Of a DNA stretch of 64,000 nt, positions 7,501 through 63,019 are shown piece after piece (positions within the stretch are counted from its first letter, which is position 1; each line of letters opens with the position of its first letter). The notes beneath the pieces were generated by a model, which saw only the letters and a program-made list of their open reading frames with translations, had not been told where the DNA came from and did not search any database. Source of the stretch: Thysanoteuthis rhombus (lineage: Eukaryota; Mollusca; Cephalopoda; Oegopsida; Thysanoteuthidae); the NCBI GenBank assembly GCA_963457665.1, contig OY735234.1:2172003-2236002 (forward strand), read 5' to 3'. A program made the position numbers and the translations under genes.

Positions 7501-10500
7501 TGTAAATAGAACCCCTGTCTCCAATTAGACACTTTTTGAAAAAAAAAATTCTCAAAACCGTACTGTAAAATATTCCCTTGGGTCCATTGTGAATGCATGT
7601 CAAATTTGGTTGAGCTGCACCAACGTTTAAGTGTGGGGGTTACAGTGATGAACAGAGCCGTTTGTTTTATGTAATAGAATGTCTTATTTCAATTGATTTC
7701 AGAAATAATCATCCTCTTTTTTTTGTCATTTTTTGCATCTATCAACCCTCGTCCTACAGGATGATATCATAGTGGATAAAGACACTGGTTCATATCATTT
7801 TATGGGTTAGGCAGTAAGGGGTACAGACTAGTTCAGTGGAGGAGTTGTCCTGTTCTGTAAGAAGCAAAGAATGGCAAAATGGTGGAATTAGGTGTTCATT
7901 TCCCTTGGAAGAATGTTGACAAAAAAAGCAAGCTTTAAGAACAACATACTCTTCTGGACCAAAGTATTCTGTTTGAAACTCCTTAAAAAAATGATCGAAT
8001 GGTGTCTCGTCATATAATGTGGCTGGAATTTTGAAGGAATCCTGATTTTGCTGTTAGTGGGACAAATTTTACTGGTTATAAAATATAGATGTTTGAAATC
8101 TATTTTTCTCTCAACTTTTGAAAAGATTTGAGTTTACAGAAGGATTTGAAAACTTTCGAGATGCTTATGATATTAGTTCGTAGTTATTTCAGTCTGTATG
8201 TGGACATGCACACACATATTCAAAACCATTCCTTTTTAATTGCTCAAAATTCTCTGTCCTTTTTCTTTTTTGGATAAAAAGCTTTTATTGACATGCATAC
8301 GTACATAATTACATACATATGTATTGAATTTTAATCAGTGTCCCCCGCGTTCTTTAAATCTTTTTTTTTTTTTTTTTTTTTTTTGAAGGTCCAATGCTTT
8401 AATATAACATACACCCCATAATTCTATCATGTTATTGCTGGGTATGAAAATGTATTTATTAAGAAGGAAAATATTTTGAAACATTTGATTTATTAGTCAA
8501 CACATACAGTACTGAGAATGCTTGCCTTTTGAACAATGGTTTCCAGGATAGTCTTGCAAGCAATTGCCCGTGAATTTGATCCTCACTGGCTGCCACTGTA
8601 GGCAAAGTTTACTAAATAATATCAATTTGAAACAGCTTGCAATAACATTTATTGAATTTTAATTTTTTTTCTTTCTTTATTTTTTTTTTTTACAGGCATT
8701 GAATTTGATTGAATGAAGTCTTAAATAAAATTCAATATTAGATGCTTCTTTTCTGTTCTCCAGCATGAAATCTTTTAAAATTGGTTTGAAAATATACTAA
8801 AAAGACAGTTGTATTTCTATATTAATGGAAAAAATAGTTCACTGTTATGTAATACGTGCATGTAAGGCACAAGGTTAGCAATTTTAGAGTGATATTGTAT
8901 GTTGATAATGTGGGTTTGTGTTCCTATCTTTCTCACATGAGAAGATGAATGGAGCCAGGGATCAAGAGCAGCTGACCTCTCCCCAAAGGTAGCTGGTCAG
9001 TGAAGGGTTGATCTAGGGATTAGTACTGACTAGGATGATAAGAGACCAGAGAAAGTGATGGTGCTCAGATGTATGTATATTATAAGTGACACACTTATTG
9101 ATGAACGAATATATATATGTGATCATGTATGTAAATACATCAACTCAAGAATTTAGAGAGAGAACAGATTAAGAAGTAGCAAGTTGGGGGTGGGGTCAAT
9201 AGCCTCCACTGACTGCAAGGCCTGTGGGTGAGTTTTTCATCTTTCAGAAAGGGGCTAACTTCAACCGAATTTGGGATGTTTGGGTAAAAAACAATATGGA
9301 AAATGTAGCATTTTAGATGCAAGAATCTTTCTGCGCTGATTGATCTGATCATACCATCAAGGGAAAGACATTGAAATGCCGCTGCCATTGTCTTACAACT
9401 CTTTTTATATACCTCGAAAGACCTCAACAACTACAGGCCTATAAGCCTACTCAACTGTGTATACAAACTTTTCACAAAGATTATCACCAACCGAATCACA
9501 AAAACACTCGATGAAAACCAGCCACGTGAACAGGCTGGCTTTAGAAGAAGCTACTCGACCATGGACCACCTGCACTCGATAAATCAACTGAAAGAAAAAG
9601 CAGCAGAGTATAAACTACCACTTGCCGTAGCATTTATTGACTTTAAAAAGGCGTTCGACTCAGTAGAAATCCCTAAGGTCATGGAAGCTATCAGTCGGCA
9701 AGGTGTAGATCCAGTATACGTTGAAGTGTTGAAACATATATACAATCATGGCAGCTCATTTATCAGGCTACATAAAGACTCGGACCCCTTCCAGCTCCAG
9801 AAAGGAGTAAGACAAGGTGATACCAGCTCACCTAAACTCTTCACAGCCTGCCTCGAGATGATCTTTAGAAGGCTAGACTGGGAGAGTAAAGGAATTAAAA
9901 TAGACGGCGAGTATCTGAGCAACCTCAGATTTGCAGACGACATAGCCCTTTTCGCAGAGAACCTACACGACCTCCAACTAATGATAGATGAACTAAATGA
10001 AGAGAGCAAAAAAGTCTGCCTACACATGAACTTCAGCAAGACGAAGATCATGTGCAACAACCACATTGGAGATAAAAACACTAAGATCGAAATCGAGGAC
10101 ATAGAACTCGAAAGTAGACCACTACATCTACCTAGGACAACAAATCTCCATGAGACCCTCAAAAGAAGAAGAAATCAAGCAAAGAATCACACTAGGATGG
10201 CAAGCCTTTGGCAGCGCTAGCTCAACCTTCAAAAATAATAAGATCCCATTAATCCTAAAGAGAAGGGTGTATAACCAATGCATCCTCCCAATAGTCACTT
10301 ATGGAGCTGAAACATGGAACTTAACCAAGAAACAGACTCGTAAGCTGAGAACCATGCAACGTGCACATGGAAGAATAATGCTGGGCCTCACATGGAGAGA
10401 CCACAAAACAGCACAGTACATCCGGGAAAAGACAAGAGTTAGAGACATCATAGAATCCATGAAAAATATCAAATGGCGGTGGGCTGGCCATGTTGCAAGA

Positions 10501-11741: not shown

Positions 11742-14700
11742 CATGTAATCCCATTGCATTTTATGTGGATATCCTATAGAATGTAGAGCACAGAGTGGTT
11801 GATAAAAACTACGACTATGATGACATTAGTCTTCTCCCCTCCCCTCCCCTAATTCATTGAATGATAGTAAAAAATCTTTATCATTTTAGATTTGACCTGA
11901 TTTCTAATTTTTAAGTTTTTTTTACTAATGAAATGAGATACAGATAATAGTCCGGAGAATGGACTCAGCAAGCAGTGCTTTTACTCTGGTTTTATGTTTA
12001 CTTCTCACTCATGTCCTTGAGAAAGGTATGAATCCACCTTCAACAGCTATGGATAAAATAGTGCAGAGTGAAGCGAGTGACCACTTCAGGTGCTTGTCTA
12101 TTTCACGTATTGCAAATGGGCTGAGTAAGTGGTAATGTGATATCTGTAGCTAGCGTAAGGCCATCACTTACTACCAATGAAATTTCGTCTAACAACTTTG
12201 CTCTCTTGTCAAAAGTCACATAAAAGTTTAATACATGAAAAGAGTTTATATTGGGTAAATTTGCCTAAATCTCTTTCACCCTTGACCTTTCGGCTGATGC
12301 TCGCTACTAAAAAAAATATCCTTCATCCTTTACTTAACTTCACTTCATGCAATTCCATTGTCTGGGATCTGACATGGTGAAATTATTTTTCAAGCAGTTT
12401 AATCTTTGAACTAGTTGTATGAATTGATGATACAATTCATTTGACTAACTGAATTGATGATTGAGTATGATAATGCAAGGGTGTGTATGTAATTTACCCA
12501 ACTTTGATTCTTTCCCCGTCCACGTTTTGATCACCTCCCCTCATTTCTTAGAATTTTTTCCCCCCAGCATATTTCTTCTCTTCCCCACAAAGTCTTGTTG
12601 AATTATACATTTGACACCTTTGATAGGTGTTTGGATGCACTCATACTGTATCAGCTAATTAACTATTTGTCAATAGAGCTAGTTCAAGCCTAGAGGTTCA
12701 TTCCTAGCCTTAGGCAATTTATTTCTACTTCCTTAAGTTCTCTACCCCTCCTAGCCTCTTTCCCCCTTTTTTCCCTCCATTTGCTTCAGATTTTCTTCCC
12801 CTTTGATTTTGCCTTTGATCTCCACCTCCTTGATGTAGGGGTGGGGAAAGGTCAAGTTTCTACACCCCTGTGATAATGTTGATGTTTTGATGTGAATTAG
12901 AAAAAAAATTTAAAGTTGGGCTGGAGTTGAAGATGAATATTTTGTGTCCAAATAGATCCAAACACATTTTTGAAAAGCTGAGTTTTGGTCAATCCGATTT
13001 CTATCCCTGACAAACAATTTGATATCCTTCTGGCTAAAGTGGTGCTTCAACTATTGCTCTAAGCTTTCCTCTGGACTACATCAGCAAGGCAGAGAGGAGA
13101 ATTCTATGACTGGGCATCGCAGGGTCTACGTAGACTTCATCTTGGCATGCGTCCTGGAGGGGAGGTTCCATTGTCTGAAGAAGAAGAACAACCCTTCATT
13201 CCTTCCTTAATCTTGCTTTTTATTCTAACAGAATTTAATCTTATGAGCTGGAATCTAGTCCTATTCATTCTTTGTTTTGTTTTTTTTCAAAATGTATGAT
13301 TACATTCCAATATAGATAATTATAATTTCTAGTGAAATAAACGCAAAAAAATTCATATTTATTTTAAATGCAATATTGTTTCTTTTTATTCAGAGATCTG
13401 TGTGGGGATGTTTTGCCAACTTTCATACCCATTCACGGCTATTAGCTGTGGTGAGTAAAATATTTTATTCTTTTAGTTAATACGTAAAATCCACTTTCCA
13501 GTTGTCTACTTGTGACACCAAAAGTTCAAATTATGGTGATTTTTGTTTTATTTTTGTTAAAAATGATTTGTAGATATGTCAAAACATTTATTCAAACTAT
13601 TTTCTTTTCAACAAGATATGTTGAACTGCTCTATGAAACTGTTTTATGTCAGTATATAGGGTGGACATTTGATTTAACAAAAAACTATGCTAACGTGACA
13701 CAGCTTCCAATGCACTGGTAATATAACTAGGTGGCTGCCCATCAAAGCAGCCAAACACAAACTAAAGAACTAATTTAGCATAAAATTACAATGTAATTGA
13801 AGCTACTGATAAAAACCTATCTTTGAAAAGAGGAAAAAAACTTTTTCATTTTTATTTATTTATTTATTTTTTTTAAACATAAGGAGTAAAGGTTGAAATT
13901 TCAGGCCTCTAGCTCCATTAATGCAGCCTTTATACATACATAGCCAGCCCAACCTGTTTGGAAACTGAAGAAAACTATGCTGACAGTTTTGGTTGACGGT
14001 TTCCAATTGTATTTAGGTTTTGAATGTAATGATGAAATTGATAATTATTTATTTATTTTTTCTGCCCTTAATAAAACTACAAAATTGCAATTAAGCTATT
14101 GCTAATGTTGTGTGAGGTGGTGTAACGGTTACCAGCATGGGAAACAGAATCAGCAAACAGAGGTCAAATTTCAGCAGAGGCTGCTCAAGTTTACTTCATA
14201 ATACCCTTGCGAAAATTATGAATCCAACCCTCTCATCAGCTATGGTTGAAATAGCTAGACTATTGGAGCCCTCTAACTCTGTAAGGCAATTCTATTGAGA
14301 GAAGGTTACACTGACAGAAAGACATACCAAGAGCTGAGCCATTAGGGCAGATTGGTGGTAAATTCTTTGCCCTTTGTGGCAACTCCTGCAGTCAAAAAGG
14401 CTGCGAGTTATGTCAAATTGTACCTTGGAGACCCAGAAAGTGGGATCATACCTGCACAATAATCCTGCTTTGAAAAGATTTTTGCACTAGTTGCAATCCA
14501 AATCTTTGCACAGCCACGGACATTATTGGATGGTTGACTAATACTGTTACGAGAATAGATGCAACCTCCACTTAAAAACATTTATGCATTTGTACAATTA
14601 TTCAAATGACAAAAAAGTAACTATTATTTCTATTAATATTCGGACCATCCTCATCTTGGTTGTTTTTCATACAATGTTTCGGCTGTTGTACTCTACGGCC

Positions 14701-17700
14701 TTCATCAGGTATCATCTGGTAGGTGTGGGGGAAGTAAAAGGGTTTGGTTTGTTACTTTCCCACACCTACCAGATGATACCTGATGAAGGCCGTAGAGTAC
14801 ATCGGCCGAAACGTTGTATGAAAAACAACCAAGATGAGGATGGTCTGAATATTAATAGAAATAATAATAATACCTCATCTCAAAAATTCAGAGATATCCT
14901 AAAAAGTAACTAGTTAAGAAATTTTTATTCACAGAAAAAACATTTTATATTGCAATTTTTTTATCTTTTAAATGAATTATCATTTTCAAGTCATACATAT
15001 TAGTAATATTTTTGTTTAATTTAGTATGTATAAGTGTGAATTTTTTAAAATTTATTATATTTTGTTTTTTTAGCCAACTACAAAAATGTTCATCGATGGA
15101 CAGTTTGTAGAATCAAAAACAACAAAATGGATTGATTTACCTAATCCTGTAAGTAAAATCCAAATGGCCTTACTTTTTTCTTTTCTCTCTCACTTTCTCT
15201 CATTTTAAACTGCAATTTTTGTCCTGTTTGTAACCTCATACTTGTAAATATCGTCTTGCCCATGAAATATATAAATATATGTTTCTTTTTGAGCTTTTTT
15301 CACAAGTGTGTAGTTTATAATCCTTGCAATAAGGAAAACTAGTTGATGATATGCCATGTCAAAGCATTTTATAAGATCTAGCTTTTGGTAATTATAAACG
15401 TTCTTATATATTTTTTCAAAAAAAGAAATGAAAAAATCTCATACTTAATTGTTGTGTTGAAGAATTTCTTAATTTAGAATTCTTTGTTTTATAGCCTTTT
15501 TTTTTTTTCCCTAATTTCATGTATGAAAAAGTTTATCTTTAGAAAAATGAAAATAGAGATATAACTATACTTTGAGAGTGGCATCGATTCTACAATTAAT
15601 TTATTTCATATATACATAAGGCCTATATTTTGGTCCAACCCAAAGAATTACCATAGAAAATATACTTATGAATGAAAGCAAATCAAATTACATTTGAACA
15701 CACTCAAGATGAGAAACCTGTTTTTAGTTTTTATACAAATAAATTTGCATTACTGTGCTAATATTTTTATTAATCTCATTTTTCTAATCATACCAAAATC
15801 TTTAACAAAATCTAACTTTTGGCATAAATGGTTTGAGAGCAAGTTGAATAACTTGAGTACTATTTTAAAGCAGGATTTTTGTTGTATAGTCCTTGAATAC
15901 TGATTAACTGATCTTTTTCTTTTTTTTTTAATAAATTATTGACAGTCATAAGTTATAATGAAATTTAATCTGTTTTTAGGATACTGATGCAAATTTAATA
16001 ATTCAAACCAAACAAATGTGTTCAAGCATTCTTTTGTTGAAAATTCAATACATACCAAATATATATTTTATGTTACCATTAATACTGATGTATTTCCCCT
16101 TTAAGTCATTTGTTTCATTGAATTCTTTTCATAATTTCAATTATTGGCTTACATGTATAATTCAATTTCTTAAACAGTAAGCAATTGAAACTATTGAGAG
16201 ATATTGACAGCTGAAGGTTGTGACCACTCCAGGAGGAGAGCTAGATATAAAGAAATCGCATCCTTTCACTTTTTCTCTGAAAAAAAATCTTCATCTAATT
16301 CTTAGGCCACAAATGAAGTTGTCACTCGGGTGCCTGAATCCACACTTGATGAGATGAATGAAGCTGTTGCATCTTGCAAAAGAGCTTTCAAGTCATGGCG
16401 TGACACCACAATTCTCACCCGGCAACAGTGCATGTTCAAGCTTCAGCAGTTGATCAAGGAAAATATGGTAAGTAAATAATTCTCAAACTGCCGTTATCAT
16501 TGATTTACGTGGCACCCCTCCAAGTTTAAATGCTTCTTGATGTGAAAGATGAGCTATATAAATTCTTTGAAATCACATTCCTTGATTTGCATCAGTCAAT
16601 TTGCGAGTTTATTTTTGATTTTGATAATTCTTTGAAGAATCCAGCTCCACTTCAAGTTTCTGGCTTTATGTTGATTTGGTTGAACAATGTAAAGAATATG
16701 AATTTAATTAGCTGTTGAGGGACTTTAAGGGAAGAAAAGAAAAGGATATGAAATCCATAGCAAATCTATTCCATATTCAAACAGCCTCTGTCTGTATCCA
16801 GGTCTTCGTAACAGTGAACATAAGATTAAGAGATTAAAACAAAGTAGAATGTTGAATTGACAAAATCTTCATTATCAGTGGATTAATCAAGTATATTCAT
16901 GATAATATAGATCAAAATATAAATTTGAAAAATATTGATGAATCCTGGACATCATTTTAGTCCAGTTCCTTATAACATGAATATGCAAATTAAGCATAAT
17001 TCAGTTTCATATGAATCATAGATATTCAGATATCAAATTGTTCATAGGAGCCAACCATCCTTTACTTTTTCATTAAAATGTCTTGAAAATGGTAAATTAA
17101 CATCACTTTAGTGTGCTCTAAAATTGGGTCAAGCATCAGGAAAAACGTTTGTTTTATATAGTAGATTTAATCTCTATTTAATGTAATTGTTACTGATATA
17201 GTTACCTTATTTTTGTTTCATTTTTTCAGGGAAAACTTGCTCAAAATATTACAACAGAACAAGGAAAAACACTGATCGATGCTGAAGGTGATGTGTTGAG
17301 AGGCCTGCGTAAGTTGATGTAAATTTTGGTGTATATCAAACTGTAGATATGATTCTATATGCAATTTCTTCTTTTTGATAAGGGAAATTATTATTCATTA
17401 GAGTTGATGTTTTATGCCTTTCTACTGGACTTGAAAGGAGGTTCATTTAAAAGCGTAAAATATTGAATCACCATAGCCCCACAAATGGCCAGCCCAACCA
17501 GCTAGCCAAGTGGGCTAGACTTCCTCTTCTCTTTGTATGTATATGTCTGGGCCCTTCCGGTCACTAGGCACTGTCTGAGAATTTTTTTTTTTTTTTTTGC
17601 TTCTTTGAGTCTCGATGGTCATTTTCAACCAACAATGTTCAACTTTTTTTTATTTATTTTTTTTTCTTCCAGAAAATTAGTTCTGTTCAAATGCGGGCTA

Positions 17701-20700
17701 CAGTGATTCATTTATGCGAGATATGGATATTGGGGTTTTTTTTGAGACTGACAAATAGATAAGGCATGCAAGTCTGTTAAAACAAAAGCTGATGATGATC
17801 TCTTGATATAGTAGAGACCATTTCTAACCTTTTCTTTGTTACTGTTATCACGAATGTTAAATAAAGATGGTCATTCAATAGAAACCATCACTGGACCAAC
17901 AGATTTTGACAGCATACCATGTTTGAAGCTTGAAAAGGTTGATTAACAACCAAATACTTCTTTTACATTTTGCTGAGCAATGATCACTAAAAAGTTGAAA
18001 TTTTCAAGCAACAGCCTTGCCCAATGCGAACTAAAGAATCAATTTAATAAAAACTTACATTGCAAATTAAACGCCTCTAAGAACCGGAGGGGGGGGGTTG
18101 AAAAAACAATGAGTAAATATTTAAATTTTCAGCCCTCTACCTTCTTTTGTGTGGCCTGTACATATGAAACAGAACTAGACAGACCAGCTTAGAAACTGAA
18201 GAAACCTATGTTGACAGTTTTGGCGAATGGTTTTTAACAGAAATGTATTTATCTATCAAAGCCTATGATGGGAAACTGCATATGTAGCTGAGGTTGAAAG
18301 GGTGTCGGGTGAACTACAAATGACATTTTGTTTAATCTCTTGTTTAAAAAAGCCATTTTAAAAATCTTAGTAGCATTCATCTTGAAGACCATTAGAAAAT
18401 TTAAAAAATTATATCCAGTTTACTCTGAAGACTAGAAATATACTATGTGTGCCAGACTATAAGACGAATGATTTATTAAAATATTTGATGGACTATGGCT
18501 CAACTGCAACTCCTCCAAGCCCCATAATTGTTCATATCAATCTTCGGTAGATGTCCCCTTGTTGAAATACCAGCATATTGGATGTGGTGTAATATTTGCA
18601 TGATTTTTTTTTTGTTATAGTTTTTTCTTTTCTTTTTTTTATGTCCTAATATTCCAGCATATTGTGTTTCGATAATTTTTCAAATTTTGAAGACAATCAT
18701 TTTGAGAAGTACAGTCATTTGACCTAACCATCTTGATTCCTATACATAATAGAAATATTCTCATATTTTCTACAGGACTGACAAAATAATACTATGAGAT
18801 TTTTAGATGAATAAAAAAACTATCTTGATCTAAGATTGATCTGAATTTTACACCTTTATTTTCTATTAGAAGCAAATTTAGAAATTTGATACTTGTAAAA
18901 CTGCTGCATTGATATATGTCCACTTTTGCCATGGTTGTATTGTTTTAGATAAGTCTATACCACAAACAATTGTACTGCAACAGCTCAGCTCATTGTTAAA
19001 TTACATAATAATAAAGTGAATTTGAGTTGGAATCAACACTTGAACCGAGTGGTTATATCAACTTTGCCAACAATATTGTTTACATTTGAATCGACCCTTT
19101 TTATTTTTGTTCAGTAAATTTCCAAATTAGAAATCATGTATCACCGACCGAAACAGTCCACCGGTCAACATTAGATGGCCAACCACTTGAAAACTAAAGA
19201 AACCTATCTGTATATATGTGTGTCTCATGTACTGGTAGCACTAAGGGAGCTAGAGGGCTGAAAATTTAAACATTCACTTCCTATGTCTCAAAAAAACTGT
19301 TCATTGTTGGTTTGTTTGTTATTTGTTTTGTTTTTGTTTTTTAAATTTTTTTTTTTTTTTTTTCAAATCTGTCTTGGTGATCACCACCCCAGCAGACATT
19401 AGTCACCTGACGGTTTCTATTGAGTGACTAACCAGACCTGTTTTCTTGATGTTTTGCTTCTTTGTTTTCAGAGGTTGTTGAACATTGTTGCAATATGAGC
19501 GGTTCAAGTCTTGGTGAGACTCTCACCGGAATTGCTAAAGACATGGACACAATGACCATACGAGAACCACTTGGTGTCTGCGCTGGTATCACTCCATTCA
19601 ACTTCCCAGCTATGATTCCCTTGTGGGTAAGTCCAGATATGTTCTTCACAATTAGAAGGAACAGTTCTATGGGTAATTATAATATGTAATCAATATGAAC
19701 TAGAAATCAGTGAACAAAAAAAAAAAAATTCAACTTTGTATTAAAAATGATTTCCAATGCATTAAAAAGCAATAAGTCCCAGCCTAAATGTTATATAATT
19801 CTAAAGAGGGCAGGTTAATGAATAATATATCTACAGGGTTATGTTTCAAATACTTTTTGCAAATAAATACAGGATCATTAACATTTGAATAAAAAATATT
19901 ATTTTCTTGTAGAAGTACCTGCCCCTCTGGTGGTTATACCCAGTTATATGGAGCTTACAGCTGTAAAACATTAAATCATTACTTAAGTCAAGGTTCTACA
20001 TCTGCAGGCTCCATATAGCTTGGTATAACCACCGGCAGGGCGGATACATCTGCAGGGTGGATATTTTCAGCTCGTGTTAATAATAAAAGATTTAAGGTAA
20101 CTTGGGGGGTTGTTTATAAGCAAACAGTTGGCACTTTGTGCAGAGTGTTCACTTCAGTTTTCTTCAAACTGGAATATGAATCTTAAAAATGCATTTTTTA
20201 GCTCAAAAATCATGGAACTCTTTGGAAATAATAGTTTAAAACCATCTAGAGTTGAATATCTGAAGCCTACAACCATTGGTTATCTGGTTCATCATTCCAT
20301 TCATCAATGAAATATTAGTTTCTTAGATCCCAAGATATTACTTATTCTATAATGTAATCCTTTGATGATGATGTTTGACACTCTGATTTCTTTGCTTTGT
20401 AGAACATAATTTGAAAAATAATTCAATGTCTTTTAGAATGGAAATTGGGCAATATGACATGTCTTGGAAAAATATGATAATGGGAGTATTAATTTGATAA
20501 AAACAAGTTTGATTCGTCTTTTTAAAGAAGATAGTTTCATTTTCAAGCATTTCAAATGAAAAATAGTACACACTGTGGGGCTTCTGCATCATGATGTGAG
20601 AGGAGTGATAAAATCAGATCATGGGACAAGATGATTTTTTTTTTTTACTATTATTATGGCAAAGAGTGTGGCTAAGAAGAAGAAAAGACAAGAAAGAATT

Positions 20701-23700
20701 AAGATTTTGGATAACTATCAGCATTTTCATTTAAAAAAAAAAAATCTGCCGAAGCATCTCTTTCTCCAAAATCTTTTTAGATGAGTCCATTTTGGGTGGT
20801 TGGTCTATTAGTCCTTAATATGTTAAAAATCAATTTTCTCAGCCATATCATATGGGATTGATATGAAACTTGTTCCAGACCTTCAGGTAAACCACCCTTG
20901 TCATTCTTGCTACTACTATGGTGAACATATTGAACTTGGTTATTTTTTCATCATTAAGTCTTGTCTGAATGAAAACAGCTCTTGCGATCCTCATCATGCC
21001 AACATTTTTAGTAGTTTTTGTATTCCTATGTAACCTTACATTTGATATCTTACAAATGCTTAGCATTCTTGTAATAATGTCTGATTTTCATTCATAGATG
21101 TTCCCTGTAGCATTAACGTGTGGCAATACAATGTTGATCAAACCATCTGAGCGGGATCCTGGTGCCTGTATGATCCTCATGGAATTAGTCAAAGAAGCTG
21201 GTTTTCCCGATGGAGTTGTCAATGTCATTCACGGAAAACATGACTGTAAGAGAATATTATCTATTTATCTATTTTTTTTTTTTTTTCTTTTTTTAGATCA
21301 TTTTATTTTCAATTATACCGCTTGCCAAGAAAGTGTTTGATAGTAAAGAGCAATGTTTAACTATAACTTCCAGGTTAACATCTTACTTCTGTGTATATCT
21401 ATCATTTGATTTGTTGCTTCTTTTGACTTGATTTTTTTTTTTTTTTTTTTTTTTTTTTGTGAGTAACCACTCTTCCATTATTCAAACCAGGGATCCCCCA
21501 ACCTTTTTTACACTGTGGACTGGTTTGATATTGATAATATTTTTGCTGACTGGTCAATGTGGTAATCATGACTGGAATATAGGTGATAAATCAACTTACT
21601 GTAAACCACTTGTAAGTGGCTAATACATTTGATTCAATTTCTATAAGGGTATATCTAACAAATCTAATATTAAGATCCAAAAGAAGGAATTCATTTTCAT
21701 TTTACAAAGAAATACCACTAAATCATATGATTTCATTCTGGTCTGGTAAGACATGCTTTGCGGCCCAGTGATTGGGGACCACTGGTGTAAGCTCTCTGTA
21801 TGAATTCCTGTGCATGACTTTTTCATTCTTTATCCCTTTTTTTTAAACCGTGTTTCGTTTTTATTATGAATACTTGAATTCTTATAGACTATTGCTAATG
21901 AAGGTTATTAATTATATTACAAAGTTAATTAGCCTTGTTTTTTGAGGTTTGATCAATTTCTCTACTTCTTTCCACTCAATGAATCTGGGATGAATATTAT
22001 TTTGGATAGCATTTTCACTTATATTCAACTTCTTATTTGCAGCTGTGAACTTTATTTGTGACCACCCTGACATCAGAGCCATTTCATTTGTGGGATCTGA
22101 TCAAGCTGTAAGTCCAGTTTTTTTATTCTTTATTCATTTCTTGGTTTTTTTTTTTTTGTTTTTTTTTTTGTTTTTTAAATCAATTTCATTCTCTCCCTAT
22201 CTTTCTACATACTTATCCTTTTGAATGTAACTTCTCAAAATTGACAAAATATTTTTACTCCATTTTTTTGGTGAGTTGCCATTCTTTTATTGTGTAAACT
22301 GTCTGTATGAATAGCAATCCATGAAAGAAGTGAACATTTTTATTATCACTAATAATTTTATTTCAATGAAAAAAAATGATTATCCAGTTTTTTTTGATTA
22401 CTCTCCTAGACTGGTAAATCCTGTAAATATTTTATGTTTTCAGGGTACTTACATTTATGACAGAGGTACTAAAAATGGCAAACGAGTTCAGTCCAACATG
22501 GTAAGATAATTTCTCATTAAAAATTTTTGTAGTTTTTTTTTTTCTAGTTTGTTCTGATCACAAAAGAAAAGTAATGATTTTCAATTAAAAACAACTTGGA
22601 AAATCATTCTACATGAACAAAAAACCTGCTTCTTTTTAACATGATTCACAATTATATTGTTCCATTATTTTAAATTTCTTTCACTCCAATTAGCATGAGA
22701 AGAATAATTCAGATAATTTCACCTTTTTAGGCTGATTTTTCATGTGTTTCATTTTACTGAATGCGAGAAATTTAATATTAAAAATTAGTGTTAAAATTTT
22801 GGAGTTGCATTATAATTGATTGTAAAGAGAAAAAAATGATAGCATACATGCATATATAACTGATTTTTTGTTACAAAAAGTGGGGGGTCACATTATATTC
22901 CAGATCACATATAATTAGGATAAATGGTAACTAATGAATTTGATGATTATCATGAATTAAAATATTCAAAACCTTTAGATATTCACTTTCTTAAAAGTAT
23001 GATGCACAGTTAAGAAATGGGTCAATTCAAGTATTTTCCTACACTTCATCTTGTTTCTCAGTTGGTATTTGATGCTAAGATATGCACATCTACTCAAAAA
23101 TTTATATATACCTGAAATATCTCGCGTATTGAAAAGTATTATTTTAATTTTATTTTCATCTTTCAAGTACAAACTTGAGATGTGGGGAGGTGGAAATAAC
23201 AGCCACATTATCTTTGTCCATTTGATTTTAATCTACCCCAAACTACTTCTGGCTTGTTAGGCCCATCAAAGAGTCATAGACCTCCCTTCCTTAAGGAGAC
23301 ATGAATGAGGATTAGGTGACCAACATCTTAGGTCAGCATGTTGTGTTTGGGGTGATCAATTAAAAAATTGGAAAAAGGAGTAATCAATGAATGAGGTACT
23401 TTTCTTGCCTTTTGTTGGGCAGTGATCACTAAAAAGATTTGTAATGCATGCATGCATACATACATAGCCAACTAGCCAAACCAACTTAAAAACTGAAGAA
23501 ATCTTTATTGACAGTTTTGGTTGATGGTATCTAATTATGTTTTTTTTATAAAAGTGACTTCAAAGCATTAACATTATGAGAAATGTGTTTAATGCTAATC
23601 TATACGTGCATTTACTAGTAAGTTCCAATCTAATTTAATCAAGTTGAATACAGCTAAATACCAATACAGACACATTTCCCTCTCCAACAGGTTTGTACAA

Positions 23701-40969: not shown

Positions 40970-43629
40970 CTGGCTTTTGGTCTGGTCATTGTCATCTGTC
41001 ATGGTTGCTACAAACGAAAATAAAGTTAAGACTCAATAGTAGGCTTCTTGTCTGAATTTTATAAAATGAAGTGTATTAATCATTATGTATGATATGGTTG
41101 GACTATTTTCCTTATCTATGAGTTGCACATTGTTTGGGCCTTGTGCCCTCCAACCTTCGTTTGGTGCTGTTGGTTCTAGAATGTGGAATCATTACTCAGA
41201 GCGCATGCTTGGTTGGACTGGACACGTCATATCTGTTTTTTGTATATCCGGTTTGTTTTATCAAGGTACTTCGAAGTTCCCTCCCTTGCACTGGGTAATC
41301 TGTTGGTTTTTTTTAGGAGTCTCTTATGATGAGAGGCTCCCAGATGTTATTAATATCAAAAAGCATTATACACAAAAAACATTGTACACAACTGTATTTT
41401 AGCATATGTTACAAGCATTGTTTATTTCAAGACTATAGTGTTGAAAAAAATAGCCAATAATCTTTTATTGCAATTTCTTAGTCATCATATAATAATAATT
41501 AATTGCTGTTCTATAGAACAATAAGAGATAAAGATTGTCTCTCTAAAATTGAAAATTAATTTGCTTTTCTCTTTTAACTATGAATAACAATGTGAATAAA
41601 TGTCCTTATATATTCAAAATGCTTTTAATAAGAATAACTAGATTTCATTTATCAACTTTTCTAACAAAATATCCAACCATGTGAGTCTGTCTACTTGTTT
41701 GTACACACAATATCTCCAAAAGTTCACAATTAATTTCAATGACATTTTGTAGAAGGGTAGGTCATGAGCCAAGAAAAATTAATCAAATTTTGGGGTGGAT
41801 CCAGAATTCTTTTTGTTGATTTTGTCAACATTGCCAGATTGGACATTTTTTTCAGTTTTTTGGATTTAATATCTGAGTAATTTGCTATGTCATCATAAAA
41901 TAAATATAATAAACTATATCATAGTGGTTTTTCAAACTATTGAACCAATAAAAGCTTTTATCCTAGCATAGTCTGGAATCTGTATCCTGATTGTTCACAT
42001 TTTGGAAACAATGGTGTTGCTGAATGTATCTCTGAGTGCTTTTTAGTTTAATTTTGTGACTACAGAGAAATACAAAACAAGAATAAAACATATCTATAGT
42101 GGAATTTTAGAAATGCAATGAAATTTGCTGCAAAATACCCCCAAAAGCAGTATCTTGCCAGACCTGCTAATAAAAAGTTATTTACATTATCCTTTTTTTT
42201 CCCTTGTGAAAAATGAGAATAAAAAGTATTGGCTATAAAATATCAACAGATGATTCCTCATGTTTTCTCTTTCTGATATAAATGAAACTTACTTGGACTT
42301 ACATGGACAAAGTGATAAAAGTTTTAAAATACCAGTGTTGCACCAAAGCTTGTTTTTTTTCCAAAGATTACAGAGCATGGGAAGTTTTAGGATGACTTAC
42401 CAATTATGAAATTTGACTTTTAAAAACTGACCTTATCGTGGATTCAGACACTTTTGACCTACAAACGTAAAAAATATTTTCTCCAAGGAGCATTTAAAAG
42501 ATATCTGTCCATGTTTTTCAATAAGATTCTTTATCACTAAATATTCTCTCAGAAATAAGGGAACAAAGAGCCTGCCATGAAATTTTGCATTTGAAACAAG
42601 GTTTTTACTTAGGGTTGGATAATGATAGCAGAGACCGCTCAATGCACATGCTCCTCCTATGGCATAAAAATCTGGTTCAAAGCTATGCTTTCCAAAAGAT
42701 TTTTTACATCAAGAGTGTTGTTGTTGCTTTGAAATTTACTTTTTAAGATTTAGTTTTTTATCTGGGTTTGGTAATGGACCAACTTTGACAGCTTGAAGCA
42801 GAGAAAACATTACTACTGGAGTAAAATGATCAAACTGGATGTCGGATAAAATATATATTTTGAATATGAGCCAGCAAGACGTATTCAGAAGCTTAGCGTG
42901 GAATCTATAGCTGTTTAACTGAACTGCTACAAACAGTGGTAGAATAACCATCAAGCCGAGTAGGCTTCAGCCCAAGAGCCTAGAGAGTAGGGAAACTTGA
43001 AAGTCAAAAATGTTTCAATTGAGTATACCCATGAGTATCTTAGATGATATTTCAGTACTTTTGGATATATTCGTTTTCATATTGAAAATATTACAAACAC
43101 TATTTCATTTGATAAATTATGCTCCAAACATATAACGATGGGGTGGGGGTCACAAAGGCTCAGCCTAGGGACCCAGGTGGTAGATAATCCTTCACTGCCC
43201 AGTAATAAAGGAAAAAAGGTCTGTTTCAAGTCAGAAAGTATACTCTATTTCTATTGTATTATGAGGCCATTGTTTTATAAATGAAATTGGAATTGGTATC
43301 TTTCTATCAAAACAAATTAATATAGATTAGTTCCTTTCTCTCATTTTTTTGGTCAAATCATACATATTTGTTCCATTTTGTTCAAGCTCTATCAACTCTT
43401 ATATTCAAAATATATATTTCATCCAACATCCAGCTTGTTTAAGTGATTCCTAATTCTTGGGATGTGTATTTACATAGGTTAGTCCATCACCACATCCATT
43501 GATAAAGTAAAACAGAGAAAATAATATCTGTGGATCCATAAAACAAAGAATCTTCATCATTTGTTATTTCAAAGTTCCTTCCTCTGTCTTTATTTACTCT
43601 GATTTATGTTGATTCTGAACAAAAACCAG

Positions 43630-43710
43630 CTCATCTTGGTTGCTATAGTGATGATGTTTTAGCTGTTGAACCCTCTGGCCTTCTTCAGTTGTTTGTTGTA
43701 GTCGGTAACC
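43630..43710. repeat. Single-arm copy of the 14622 foldback family
   Basis: CATCTTGGTTGCTATAG, then TTTTAGCTGTTGAACCCTC and GGCCTTCTTCAG, match the left arm at 14651-14710 in order. No matching right arm nearby. Confidence 0.6.
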
Positions 43711-44309
43711 TTTGTGGGAATTTGGAATCAAACTTTCCATTCAATTCACAAGGATGGGTTGTTCTCATTTTATTGTCAATACTGGAGGATATCTTGCATC
43801 AGTTGAATCTTCCTAGTTACTTTGGCTGTCTTTTTCCTTGTTTTTTTTTTATTACTTCTTCAGGAATTATCTGGATGTAAATTTTGATTTTTTGTTTTAA
43901 GCTCTTTCAGTGTAATTTTGTAGTATTTGTTTCCAGCAATAGATATCAATTGGATTAACTCTTGAATTCATTCAAAGAAAATAGAATATCAATCTGAGGG
44001 AAAATAACTTCTGATTAAAATTATCTCCCTTAGGCCATTAGATGGACTTTTTTTTCATTATTTTTTATGCTATTTCCTTGTCAATTACGAGAAGTTTCAA
44101 GTGGTTTATGAATTTATGAGTTAAGAATACTTTGGCTCAAGATTTCATTTATGAAACATCTAGTTGGACTCATGAACTAATAACTACCTAAACTTGTAGT
44201 ATGATAACTGCTTTTGTTTTCAGCAAATAAATACTATTGATTTAATAAAAATATTTTGAATGGCCTTCATAGAATGCAAAATAGTTTAACAACCATGGCT
44301 ACCAAAGAT

Positions 44310-44649: not shown

Positions 44650-44935
44650 GCAAGTTATACATAGATTTATTTGGACAATTATTTTTCTGTTCACAATGTT
44701 TTGGCTATTGTACCTTTCTTTATGTGTTTGTCATGTTTGGTAATGCTCTTAGCATCATAAGTAGAGCACTTTCATTCAATAGGGGAGTTTGACTATTCTT
44801 ATTTCATTGGAAGGCTGGAGGGGTTCAGTTGAAACAGCATGAACATAGAAACAACCAAGTTGAGGACAATAGTCTGAACAAATCTGTGAGTAATGATAAT
44901 TCCTCATCTAAAAAATTCAGACCAAAATTAATGTA
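44650..44935. repeat. Diverged relative of the 14622 foldback element
   Basis: The left part TTTTGGCTATTGTACC and the right part AACAACCAAGTTGAGGA with CTCATCTAAAAAATTCAGAC match the outer and inner blocks of 14622-14895 in the same order. Arms no longer pair well. Just upstream of the first recovered evectin-like exon. Confidence 0.65.
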
Positions 44936-46538: not shown

Positions 46539-49500
46539 AAGAAATGGATATATAATCCGACAGAATAATTATGAATGGGTTCTTTGAAACTCTATTTGAA
46601 ATAACCTCCCATCATTACACAGAGAAAGTATCATTAGACAGCATAAATAGAATAAACAAATAAAGAAAATAGAGTTGCTGCAAGAGTCAAACCTATTACT
46701 AACTTATCGGTCACAGGTTTGATTCTTTTAGCAGCTGCATTGTCTTTAATTGTTCATTCTGCTAATGCTTTCGAGGCCAACTGATACATTCTTGGAAGGT
46801 GATTTCAAGTAGCATTTCAGATAATATAATGCATTCATAATTATTCTATTGGATTATACATCTATTTCTTAATAATGTAATTGTCTGCACTACGAAAAAA
46901 TAGTGCAGACATGGACAGTGAATGAACAAAATAGGAACTTGGAGATAAAGCAGTTATTTAAGTCTTAGCCTTTCTGTGGGGCTGTTTAGCTCAAATTCCT
47001 GCCGAAGCCCCATTTTCTTTGATTGCTTATTCTGTTCACACTGTCTGGACCAAGTGACAATTTCTCTGTATAATAACAGGAGGTCATTTCAAATAGAGTT
47101 CCGAACAATACAATCATTATATGTATTAGAGAAATGGACATATTTGGTCCAGCAGAATGAATCACAGATTGCATTATATTATATAGAAACTTGGTCTACT
47201 CGTCTCTTTCAATGGGACTGTCATATTTTGACGGACCAAATATGTCCATTTCTTTGATACATAAACATCACGTTTGAAGATATGAATAGACTTAAAATAA
47301 ACGAGATGAGAATTTGGGTCGAAGCAGTTATTTGGCCTTTGCATTACGTACTGCTGTTTAGCTCAATGGTAAGAGCATTGCTACGTTGAAGCAGCTACCC
47401 TATTGGTGACAGGTCTGATTCCTGCAACAGCTTCATTTTCTTTAACTGTTTATTCTATTCATGTTGTCTGGGACGAGTGATATATTAACCTTATAACGAC
47501 CGGAGATCATTTCAAATAAGTTTCAATATAATATAACGCAATTCATAATTCATATGTATATTTATATATATGTATATATATTTACAATAACTCAATATCC
47601 GTCTGTATGTCTGCCTTTTCCATTTTATAGGCTACAAATTTGCATCTAGGAAGCTGAAATATAGCATAGGGGAGGACATAGGCTATGTGAAGTTGATCTT
47701 GGTGATATTTCAATGTCACCAAAGGTCATTTGTAGCCAACTGAAGTAATTGTAAGCTACAATTTTGCACCTAGGCAGTTGAAATATGGCATATGGGTACA
47801 TCTTTTCACTGCAGAGAACATTTGAGACATTTGTCCTCAAAAAAAACTCCTAACAAATATATATACATATATGTAATACTGAATAATATTTTAATGAATA
47901 TCAATACTTTCTTTACATAAGGCCGACTTGCAAATATTCGTTGGTTGAATATTAGAAAAAATTATAAAAAATGATTTTCAAAAGTAGTCCTTATTTTCCA
48001 AATTTTTTCAAATTCAAATACAAAATATAATTCTTTTATAACTGTTGATATTACCAAAAAGGATTGAAAAGTTATAGGAAGAGAAAATGCAAAAATTGAA
48101 GTATGTCAACCTTGAAAGTTTTTAAACTTCTGCTAAGAAATAGTGATTAGTTGCCTGTAAAATCAATGAATTTGCAAACAATGATGGATTTTAAGAGGAA
48201 TTTTTTCACATTTCTTGCAACTATCCAGTTTGTAGCTCCCCTATTGGCAATTGGTGAAAGGACTGCACAGATACCAGGAAAACCCAAGTTACCTGGTCTT
48301 TCACAAGATCGTCTGCTGATGGCTGTTCCAGACAAACCGACCAAAGACAGTAATATTGAATGGTTTTTGTTTGCAGATGAAGAGAGTGTCCAGTAAGTTA
48401 TTTTGATTTTCTTTATTCTTAATCTTTGTGGAAAAAATTACCTTATTGTAAACAAAGAAATGCTAGTGAAACCATCTTTAACATTGCTATAATAAGCAGA
48501 AGCATAGTAATCCAAAAAAGGGGGAAACAAATGGTTTCGTATTTTTTCTTGTTTTTGAAACAATCTTCAGAATTGATTTTTATCACAAAGCCTCCATCCA
48601 TTCAATTTTTAGGCTGTTTCAGCCAACAGCATGAAATCTAAGTAAAGAAGTAGCCTCAGACAAGACTGGAACTTGCACCTCCAACACTAATGATTATCAA
48701 TGTGAATTTTTCTGTTTTCTATCAAGCTATAAGACATAAGATGAAGCAAAATTTTCAACTTATGCAATGATAATTTTGTTCAGAACAAAATGGCTGAGTC
48801 AGCTAATTTGTATAAATTCAATTTCTTGCAAGTATAATACATTTTGAAAGAAATGTTTCCTAATCATCTCTATATACTCAAATAATATACTTATAGTATG
48901 TTGTCTTGTAATTTAATTCAAAATGATATAGGTCTAAAAATTATTAAGGGAAATATTAAAGACTTAGTTGTGAAAGAGCTAAAATGAAGGGAGGTAATCA
49001 AAATAGTGACTACATGAGTTGTTGCCAATTTAGATGGTTTTTTTTTTTTTTACCAAGATTTAGATGTTTTGGGTTGGGTCTGGATGTCAGGAATTGCTAC
49101 TTAAATGGTTTTGAATAAAATAAATGATATTCATTTTACAGTAATAAAATAATCAATATCAATTATTATTGATCTATTTTACTATTATTATTTATTTATA
49201 CTATATATGCTACCATTTTTGACAGCACTATACTAGTAAACTAGTAATAATATTCCACCTCTGAATTTCAAAACGACTCAAGAAATATATAATCATTTCA
49301 AGTATGAAATGATTGTGATATTTTCAAAAATGTAAAAAACAAACCAACGATGAAAGATGAACTGAAAATTTTCTAATTTAAATAAAAAATTGTTCTTTCA
49401 GGAGTTGGGTTGAAGCCATCCAATATGTGGTAAGTATCTGATTTACATTATTACTCAGCTTTATTTTCCCATCTTAAAGAACTTTTTCTTGGGTATTTTC

Positions 49501-59494: not shown

Positions 59495-63019
<3,525 letters not shown>

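Follow-up and report, generated by a model that had tools for sequence, protein, structure and literature searches.

Penelope-like elements (PLEs) with inverted terminal copies are among the closest described counterparts of the insertion analysed here. The PLE PAc of Anolis cleaves and extends both strands and has been modelled as a dimer, with reverse transcription starting at two internal sites that bound a "tail", and with no difference in start site between the top and bottom strands in vitro (PMC11167929). The PLEs of Adineta, in those passages of their description that are used here, carry inverted pseudo-long terminal repeats (pLTRs) with an optional 31-bp tail on one of them. Target-site duplications (TSDs) 8-10 bp long accompany some of the copies, and the open reading frame (ORF) starts within the pLTR; self-priming was proposed by the authors (PMC3846280). 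The second-strand and later steps of PLE insertion were left unvalidated in the biochemical study (PMC11167929). The present analysis concerns a stretch of 64,000 nucleotides from the squid Thysanoteuthis rhombus (assembly GCA_963457665.1, contig OY735234.1, positions 2,172,003 to 2,236,002), referred to below as the window, which contains a near-perfect palindrome in an intron of an ALDH6A1-like gene. This palindrome is probably a single insertion of a short interspersed element (SINE) derived from a transfer RNA (tRNA), placed by target-primed reverse transcription from both ends of the target with machinery of the PLE type. A short dispersed element that keeps its complementary DNA (cDNA) ends, start sites, join and target site makes the question of how PLEs insert countable.

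A preliminary description of the window had placed the palindrome at 14622-14867 and had named ALDH6A1 as the host gene, and both statements are borne out. Aligned without gaps, two arms of 108 nt (14622-14729 and 14759-14866) are 96% complementary around 29 nt, and a gapped alignment of 14622-14737 with 14752-14866 spans 116 positions at 94.8% identity; this pair heads the list of inverted pairs in the 64-kb window (seeds of 14, minimum 40 nt). Folding of the region, which had been proposed as a check, predicts a strong RNA structure for 14612-14912, with an energy of -205.4 kcal/mol where 100 shuffled sequences average -63.9 +/- 4.8 (z -29.6). The insertion extends past 14867, the end that had been given for the palindrome: the right arm alone continues into a 34-nt tail that ends at ~14900, and the TSDs lie outside it, in the form of a 12-bp direct repeat, AAAAAGTAACTA, that flanks the entire insertion (14612-14623 and 14901-14912). 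Some 160-170 nt downstream of the insertion lies an exon (15074-15148); a comparison of its translation with PDB chains gives a match to methylmalonate-semialdehyde dehydrogenase (ALDH6A1) at E 6e-6. The window copy is an intronic insertion with a predicted transcript stem of more than 100 bp, and a stem of this length in a pre-mRNA intron would be a natural substrate of double-stranded-RNA editing.

When the assembly (2.73 Gb, 514 contigs) was searched with the palindrome, 2133 first-look candidates emerged, the best 40 of which were scored; 39 of the scored loci and the window copy, each with flanks of ~400 nt or more, form an aligned set of 40 copies. The genome search and family alignment that had been called for thus place the window copy in a dispersed family. 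All 40 scored loci are two-armed, and in 40/40 copies the arms represent one unit (positions in which carry the prefix X) arranged head-to-head, with one tailed and one untailed arm per copy, the query itself being one-tailed. The BLAST ends of the untailed arm fall at X112-148 and those of the tailed arm at X160-170. A TSD score of at least 8 was obtained in 34/40 copies as compared to 2.75% of 400 mismatched flank pairs, and a score of at least 9 in 30/40 as compared to 0.75%. The 34 TSDs are 8-18 nt long and 73% A+T; with these as the reference, arm ends fall at X124-140 (mode 131) for the untailed arm and at X159-169 (mode 166) for the tailed one, so that the two arm ends lie ~35 nt apart in unit coordinates. 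Immediately outside the TSDs, raw counts show A at -3 and -2 in 19/34 each and C at -1 in 14/34 upstream, with G at +1 in 13/34 and T at +2 and +3 in 21/34 each downstream, which is an apparent, roughly symmetric AAC ... GTT tendency at borders blurred by shared letters.

The central junctions are variable, with 39 distinct coordinate pairs among the 40 copies. By count alone, and with no claim of microhomology, 21/40 show an overlap of 1-3 nt, 4/40 are flush and 15/40 contain 1-11 nt of filler; of the two arms, the tailed one is longer in 15/40 and the untailed one in 25/40. That the junctions are mostly unshared argues against copying from palindromic parents, which would share them. Taken together, the 39 junctions, the unequal ends, the variable TSDs and the tRNA-like head described below give these palindromes the look of having been made anew by retrotransposition. 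The identical architecture at 40 loci with differing TSDs also makes an assembly artefact unlikely. In two loci the tail itself is elaborated: to the right of the insertion in L012, five head-to-tail units of ~74 nt (the last 76 unit positions) follow the tailed arm, and the edge of L072 shows the start of a similar tandem tail unit, which suggests repeated template jumps or slippage.

A second sample was chosen with one arm and its tail as query, which gave 1315 candidates with the best 40 scored; the first 20 of these 40 that lay outside the earlier set were fetched with 360 nt of upstream sequence. An inverted partner was present within the stretch in 14/20 loci, and the partner was untailed in 11 of the 12 with a measurable outer end, the exception being L070. 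Behind the TSD of a further locus, L087, ~15 nt of an arm can be traced. A TSD score of at least 9 was found in 13/18 loci, the highest control score of each locus being 8-17; this test is weaker than that of the first sample, as the entire upstream stretch was searched. TSDs and dispersal, as expected of a SINE, thus characterise both samples. The near-constant total length of the palindromes in the first set was rejected as a clue to mechanism, since loops of many sizes in the one-arm sample indicate that it is an artefact of selection. A systematic 200-kb sample of the assembly (28,796 N) contained no young palindrome; its matches at E up to 0.01 were three diverged fragments.

The longer copies of the second sample reveal a conserved stretch 5' of the shared arms, which brings the unit to ~310 nt and led us to reject X1 as the 5' end of the RNA. 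A common 5' start (unit position <=6) is reached in 7/20 copies, on the tailed arm in L078, L079, L083, L086 and L088 and on the untailed arm in L081 and L082. The Rfam tRNA model assigns 26.5 bits to the head of L078, and the head contains stretches that we take to be A-box- and B-box-like, after the polymerase III boxes. On its sequence, then, the head reads as a decayed tRNA-derived head of weak tRNA likeness with a common 5' end. As the longer copies begin with this head, the unit is read as a tRNA-derived SINE that is 5'-truncated in the window; the element, whose class the preliminary description had not recognised, is accordingly assigned to a tRNA-derived SINE in an inverted pair and not to a new kind of foldback.

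Behind the head, the stretch X44-X87 follows the pattern of a minimal type I hammerhead. Among 78 of the 80 arms (two incomplete arms were dropped), the core with the allowed H17 is intact in 57, stem I is complete (4/4 pairs) in 72 and stem II (6/6) in 48; one extra A separates the core from stem II, and both window arms keep the core. These features define a putative ribozyme of the minimal type I. An open frame with a start codon begins behind the core and continues through the tail, and within it a hairpin, GATGAGG/CCTCATC, can be drawn with 7/7 pairs in 27 and 6 pairs in 9 of 36 tailed arms (4 being incomplete); the columns of this hairpin hardly vary and hence provide no evidence from covariation. 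A microRNA precursor was considered and rejected, as the 15 Rfam matches listed are all under their gathering scores and are generic hairpin matches.

At non-CpG subfamily sites the arms within a copy match above expectation, namely at X120 (36/38, 18.9 expected), X110 (35/39, 21.1), X121 (38/38, 29.3), X67 (39/40, 29.1), X118 (35/37, 28.3) and X89 (37/39, 30.3), with X134 not above chance (12/19, 13.1 expected). The CpG sites X72 (27/40, 25.5 expected), X75 (30/39, 29.5) and X81 (27/38, 28.5) are near chance. Agreement at non-CpG sites without agreement at CpG sites indicates a common source of the two arms, which have since decayed independently of each other. The classes defined by X120 overlap in age (arm divergence 0-0.092 versus 0.015-0.163), so the agreement does not merely reflect one source per epoch. 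It had been proposed that the few mismatches of the window copy imply a recent origin or active homogenisation by gene conversion. The former part holds, as the window arms mismatch at 1/76 non-CpG sites and at 4/86 of all compared sites, which makes the copy fairly young; the latter is not supported, as the CpG sites are not concordant beyond chance, and gene conversion between arms was rejected on this discordance.

These observations are best accommodated by the following scheme. An endonuclease would cut both target strands ~12 nt apart, and both cut 3' ends would prime cDNA synthesis on SINE RNA. One cDNA would begin at the distal start site (X~166) and retain the tail, and the other ~35 nt further in (X~131), leaving it without one; both would extend towards the 5' end of the RNA, and their ends would then be joined. 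The product would be a pair of head-to-head inverted copies of unequal length, with one tail and a TSD. As with PLE machinery, there are inverted terminal copies, one of which can bear a tail, and two apparent start sites, and we infer such machinery from the minimal hammerhead core, the start codon with its short frame and the two arm ends that resemble the start sites bounding a PLE tail. We suggest more tentatively, and with rather less than even confidence, that the SINE family parasitises a PLE and that both cDNAs might be drawn off a single RNA molecule, one per start site, in which case the second enzyme of the dimer would have to use the second site and the tail would follow from this.

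Several observations weigh against this interpretation. With regard to the unit itself, Rfam finds no hammerhead in it; the 26.5 bits of the L078 head are under the Rfam gathering score of 29; a tRNA match at E up to 1 was returned by Rfam in only 1/8 loci, 5/8 of which have near-complete heads; ARAGORN called 0 tRNAs in 7 loci, among them the same 5 with a near-complete head; and the window copy is itself without the tRNA-like head. With regard to architecture, the 40-copy set was chosen by likeness to a one-tailed palindromic query, which favours two-armed loci, so that its uniformity is in part a product of selection. In the one-arm sample, L070 is apparently tailed on both arms, in L072 and L084 the partner arm terminates within the unit without coinciding with either start site, L075, L077 and L080 (3/20) are single-armed with a possible TSD, and L079 and L083 have neither partner nor TSD in the stretches searched. 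One tail per copy implies a difference between the strands in start site, and PAc displays none in vitro. Finally, a common source of the two arms is not proof of one RNA molecule, and the CpG site X114 (window 14846 in the tailed arm) is concordant below chance (14/38 versus 20.1 expected), with CA in 7 untailed and 0 tailed arms, a marginal result at one of 11 sites examined.

Nor did the search that was made for an autonomous partner reveal one. A search with PF01541 (GIY-YIG), in which the best 150 of 1162 candidates were scored, gave 7 matches, with 1.3-1.4 kb read per locus; the unit (E up to 1) occurs in 0/7 of these loci within ~400 nt upstream and 800 nt downstream, a narrow test, and they were rejected as the partner. 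Four of them, L092-L095, are decayed pieces of GIY-YIG sequence that resemble one another, have stops within or close to the matching part and look PLE-like by motif. Loose hammerhead-like strings number 12 in the 9.5 kb around the GIY-YIG loci, where 7 to 8 are predicted from a control rate of 145 in the systematic 200 kb (28,796 N), and none of the 12 precedes the GTTGTAT of the unit, so that they are not read as a signal. A scan for reverse transcriptase (RT) and GIY-YIG motifs in unit loci of at least 500 nt with short flanks, and in the window, detected no GIY-YIG and only one RT stretch, of the type found in long interspersed elements (LINEs), in the window. Since an ORF with RT and GIY-YIG was not found attached to the unit, we treat the unit as similar to PLEs in the way it works but not as a member of them, and both the partner and the PLE assignment are ones that we infer.

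Among other explanations, the palindrome could be a solo inverted pair of PLE pLTRs, for which the 5' pLTR/ORF junction of a normal PLE transcript served as the starting point of reverse transcription; the tRNA-like head would then be no more than a part of the PLE promoter region. The hammerhead core, the open frame and the tail are PLE traits, PLE-like GIY-YIG fragments are present in the genome, and inverted pLTRs with one tail are described for Adineta in the passages used here (PMC3846280). We nevertheless consider this origin unlikely, because 7/20 copies start at a common tRNA-like 5' end with A-/B-box-like stretches, as would a short polymerase III transcript, and because the motif scan of the loci of at least 500 nt gave only the LINE-type stretch elsewhere in the window. 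Self-priming, in which a cDNA end snaps back and copies itself, was put forward for the Adineta PLEs on an antisense template in the same passages (PMC3846280), and would explain the head-to-head order, the short junction overlaps and the derivation of the arms from one source. However, it should reproduce the tail and the adjoining target sequence in the second arm, and this arm is untailed in 40/40 copies (under the one-tailed query), as is the partner in 11/12 measurable loci of the one-arm sample, and adjoins a copy of the target site in 34/40. As the second arm has its own start, adjoins a target copy and is devoid of a tail, two primed cDNAs fit better, and self-priming appears quite improbable.

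The mobile foldback element of the preliminary description remains valid as to its mobility and dispersal. As a DNA foldback transposon, akin to a miniature inverted-repeat transposable element and moved as a palindrome by a transposase, it would account for dispersed inverted repeats with target duplications, but the outer ends are unequal where such a transposon has equal termini, the TSDs of 8-18 nt are not of fixed length, single-armed and 5'-truncated copies exist, and a tRNA-like head is present. The 39 distinct junctions among 40 largely refute it; we reject it, and what probability it retains is very slight. An equally faint prospect is offered by classical LINE twin priming or by two independent adjacent insertions. 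Twin priming also yields inverted segments with one TSD, but these derive from different parts of the RNA, whereas both arms here hold the identical 3' part; and two insertions would not share one pair of TSDs (34/40) and one tail (40/40). Two-ended target-primed insertion of a tRNA-derived SINE is the explanation that we retain as the most probable.

Features of the palindromic insertion and of its relatives in the window (window positions; X, unit position)
Feature	Positions	Strand	Basis or remark
Left TSD copy, AAAAAGTAACTA	14612..14623	.	direct repeat; final 1-2 bases common to arm end
Untailed arm, inverted, unit X134 to X20, 5'-truncated	14622..14737	-	arm alignment (locus L048)
Hammerhead-like motif, untailed arm	14669..14712	-	core intact, stem I 4/4 pairs, stem II 5/6
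Central arm junction, 1-nt overlap	14737..14738	.	L048: left arm ends X20, right starts X5
Tailed arm, unit X5 to X170 by alignment	14737..14902	+	last bases common to right TSD copy
Hammerhead-like motif, tailed arm	14776..14819	+	stem I ATAC/GTAT, CTGATGA, stem II, GAAACGTT
Short open frame starting ATGAAAAAC, through tail	14818..14900	+	open in majority unit and window letters
Hairpin GATGAGG/CCTCATC, A/T-rich loop	14833..14879	+	loop holds untailed arm end (X~131); 3' side holds tailed arm end (X~166)
Tail, on one arm only	14867..14900	+	arm alignment
Right TSD copy	14901..14912	.	direct repeat
Old relative, one arm visible	43625..43752	-	profile search
Old diverged relative, probably two-armed	44693..44921	.	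minus trace 44693-44713 (weak alone, E 1.9); plus arm with tail 44810-44921

The diverged relatives that had been noted at 44650-44935 and 43630-43710 are genuine: an nhmmer profile built from 80 arms matches 44810-44921 (E 2.1e-9) and 43626-43689 (E 3e-6), with weaker matches in the window at 2039-2088 (9e-4) and 41052-41163 (0.008). The window contains other repetitive sequences as well. A dispersed repeat of 96 nt occurs four times (13932-14027, 18163-18258, 23460-23555 and 61340-61435), three of the copies sharing 64-73% identity with the first. Another repeat family is present at 1852, 58964 and 61931. Other spaced inverted repeats, of 66-76 nt and 74-79%, are found at 2956-3031/3335-3410 and 46568-46633/47055-47120. 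A tRNA-like match at 47352-47433 (+) scores 30.4 bits, above the Rfam gathering score, was not called by ARAGORN, and has no match to the palindrome SINE profile at E up to 0.05. The LINE-type stretch of the motif scan is an open stretch of 281 aa at ~9375-10217 (+) with a FADDI motif, which, by this motif only, we take to be a fragment of a LINE-type reverse transcriptase.

If the interpretation presented here is true, the squid element is a SINE riding on a PLE, a combination of which we found no description in the literature titles, abstract openings and passages covered, a scope outside which most subscription papers and Repbase lie. With tRNA-derived SINEs it shares a tRNA-like 5' head, a composite body, 5' truncation and TSDs, but its body and arm ends are PLE-like instead of resembling a LINE 3' end, and 14/20 copies of the one-arm sample are inverted pairs. 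Animal retrozymes and the minimal type I hammerheads of PLEs have the same core, with GAAACGUU and no real helix III, in the passages compared (PMC7761336, PMC7229834); unlike retrozymes, the squid unit is not tandem as a rule, the tandem tail units of L012 and the L072 edge notwithstanding. The short non-autonomous Penelope elements of heliconiine butterflies are comparable in their shortness, non-autonomy and Penelope assignment, and in the passages compared there is no mention of a tRNA head or of inverted pairs (PMC6685494). The PLEs with inverted pLTRs, namely Pen2a_Av of Adineta vaga (PMC3846280, in the passages used here) and PAc/Poseidon of Anolis (PMC11167929), differ from the squid insertion in that the latter is a short inverted pair alone, with no ORF between its arms, and in that its unit of ~310 nt has a tRNA-like head and was found with no attached RT or endonuclease. 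They resemble it in their head-to-head inverted terminal pieces, in an optional tail of 30-40 nt on one piece and a short TSD, and in a hammerhead beside a start codon, two internal sites at which reverse transcription starts and the cutting and extension of both strands.

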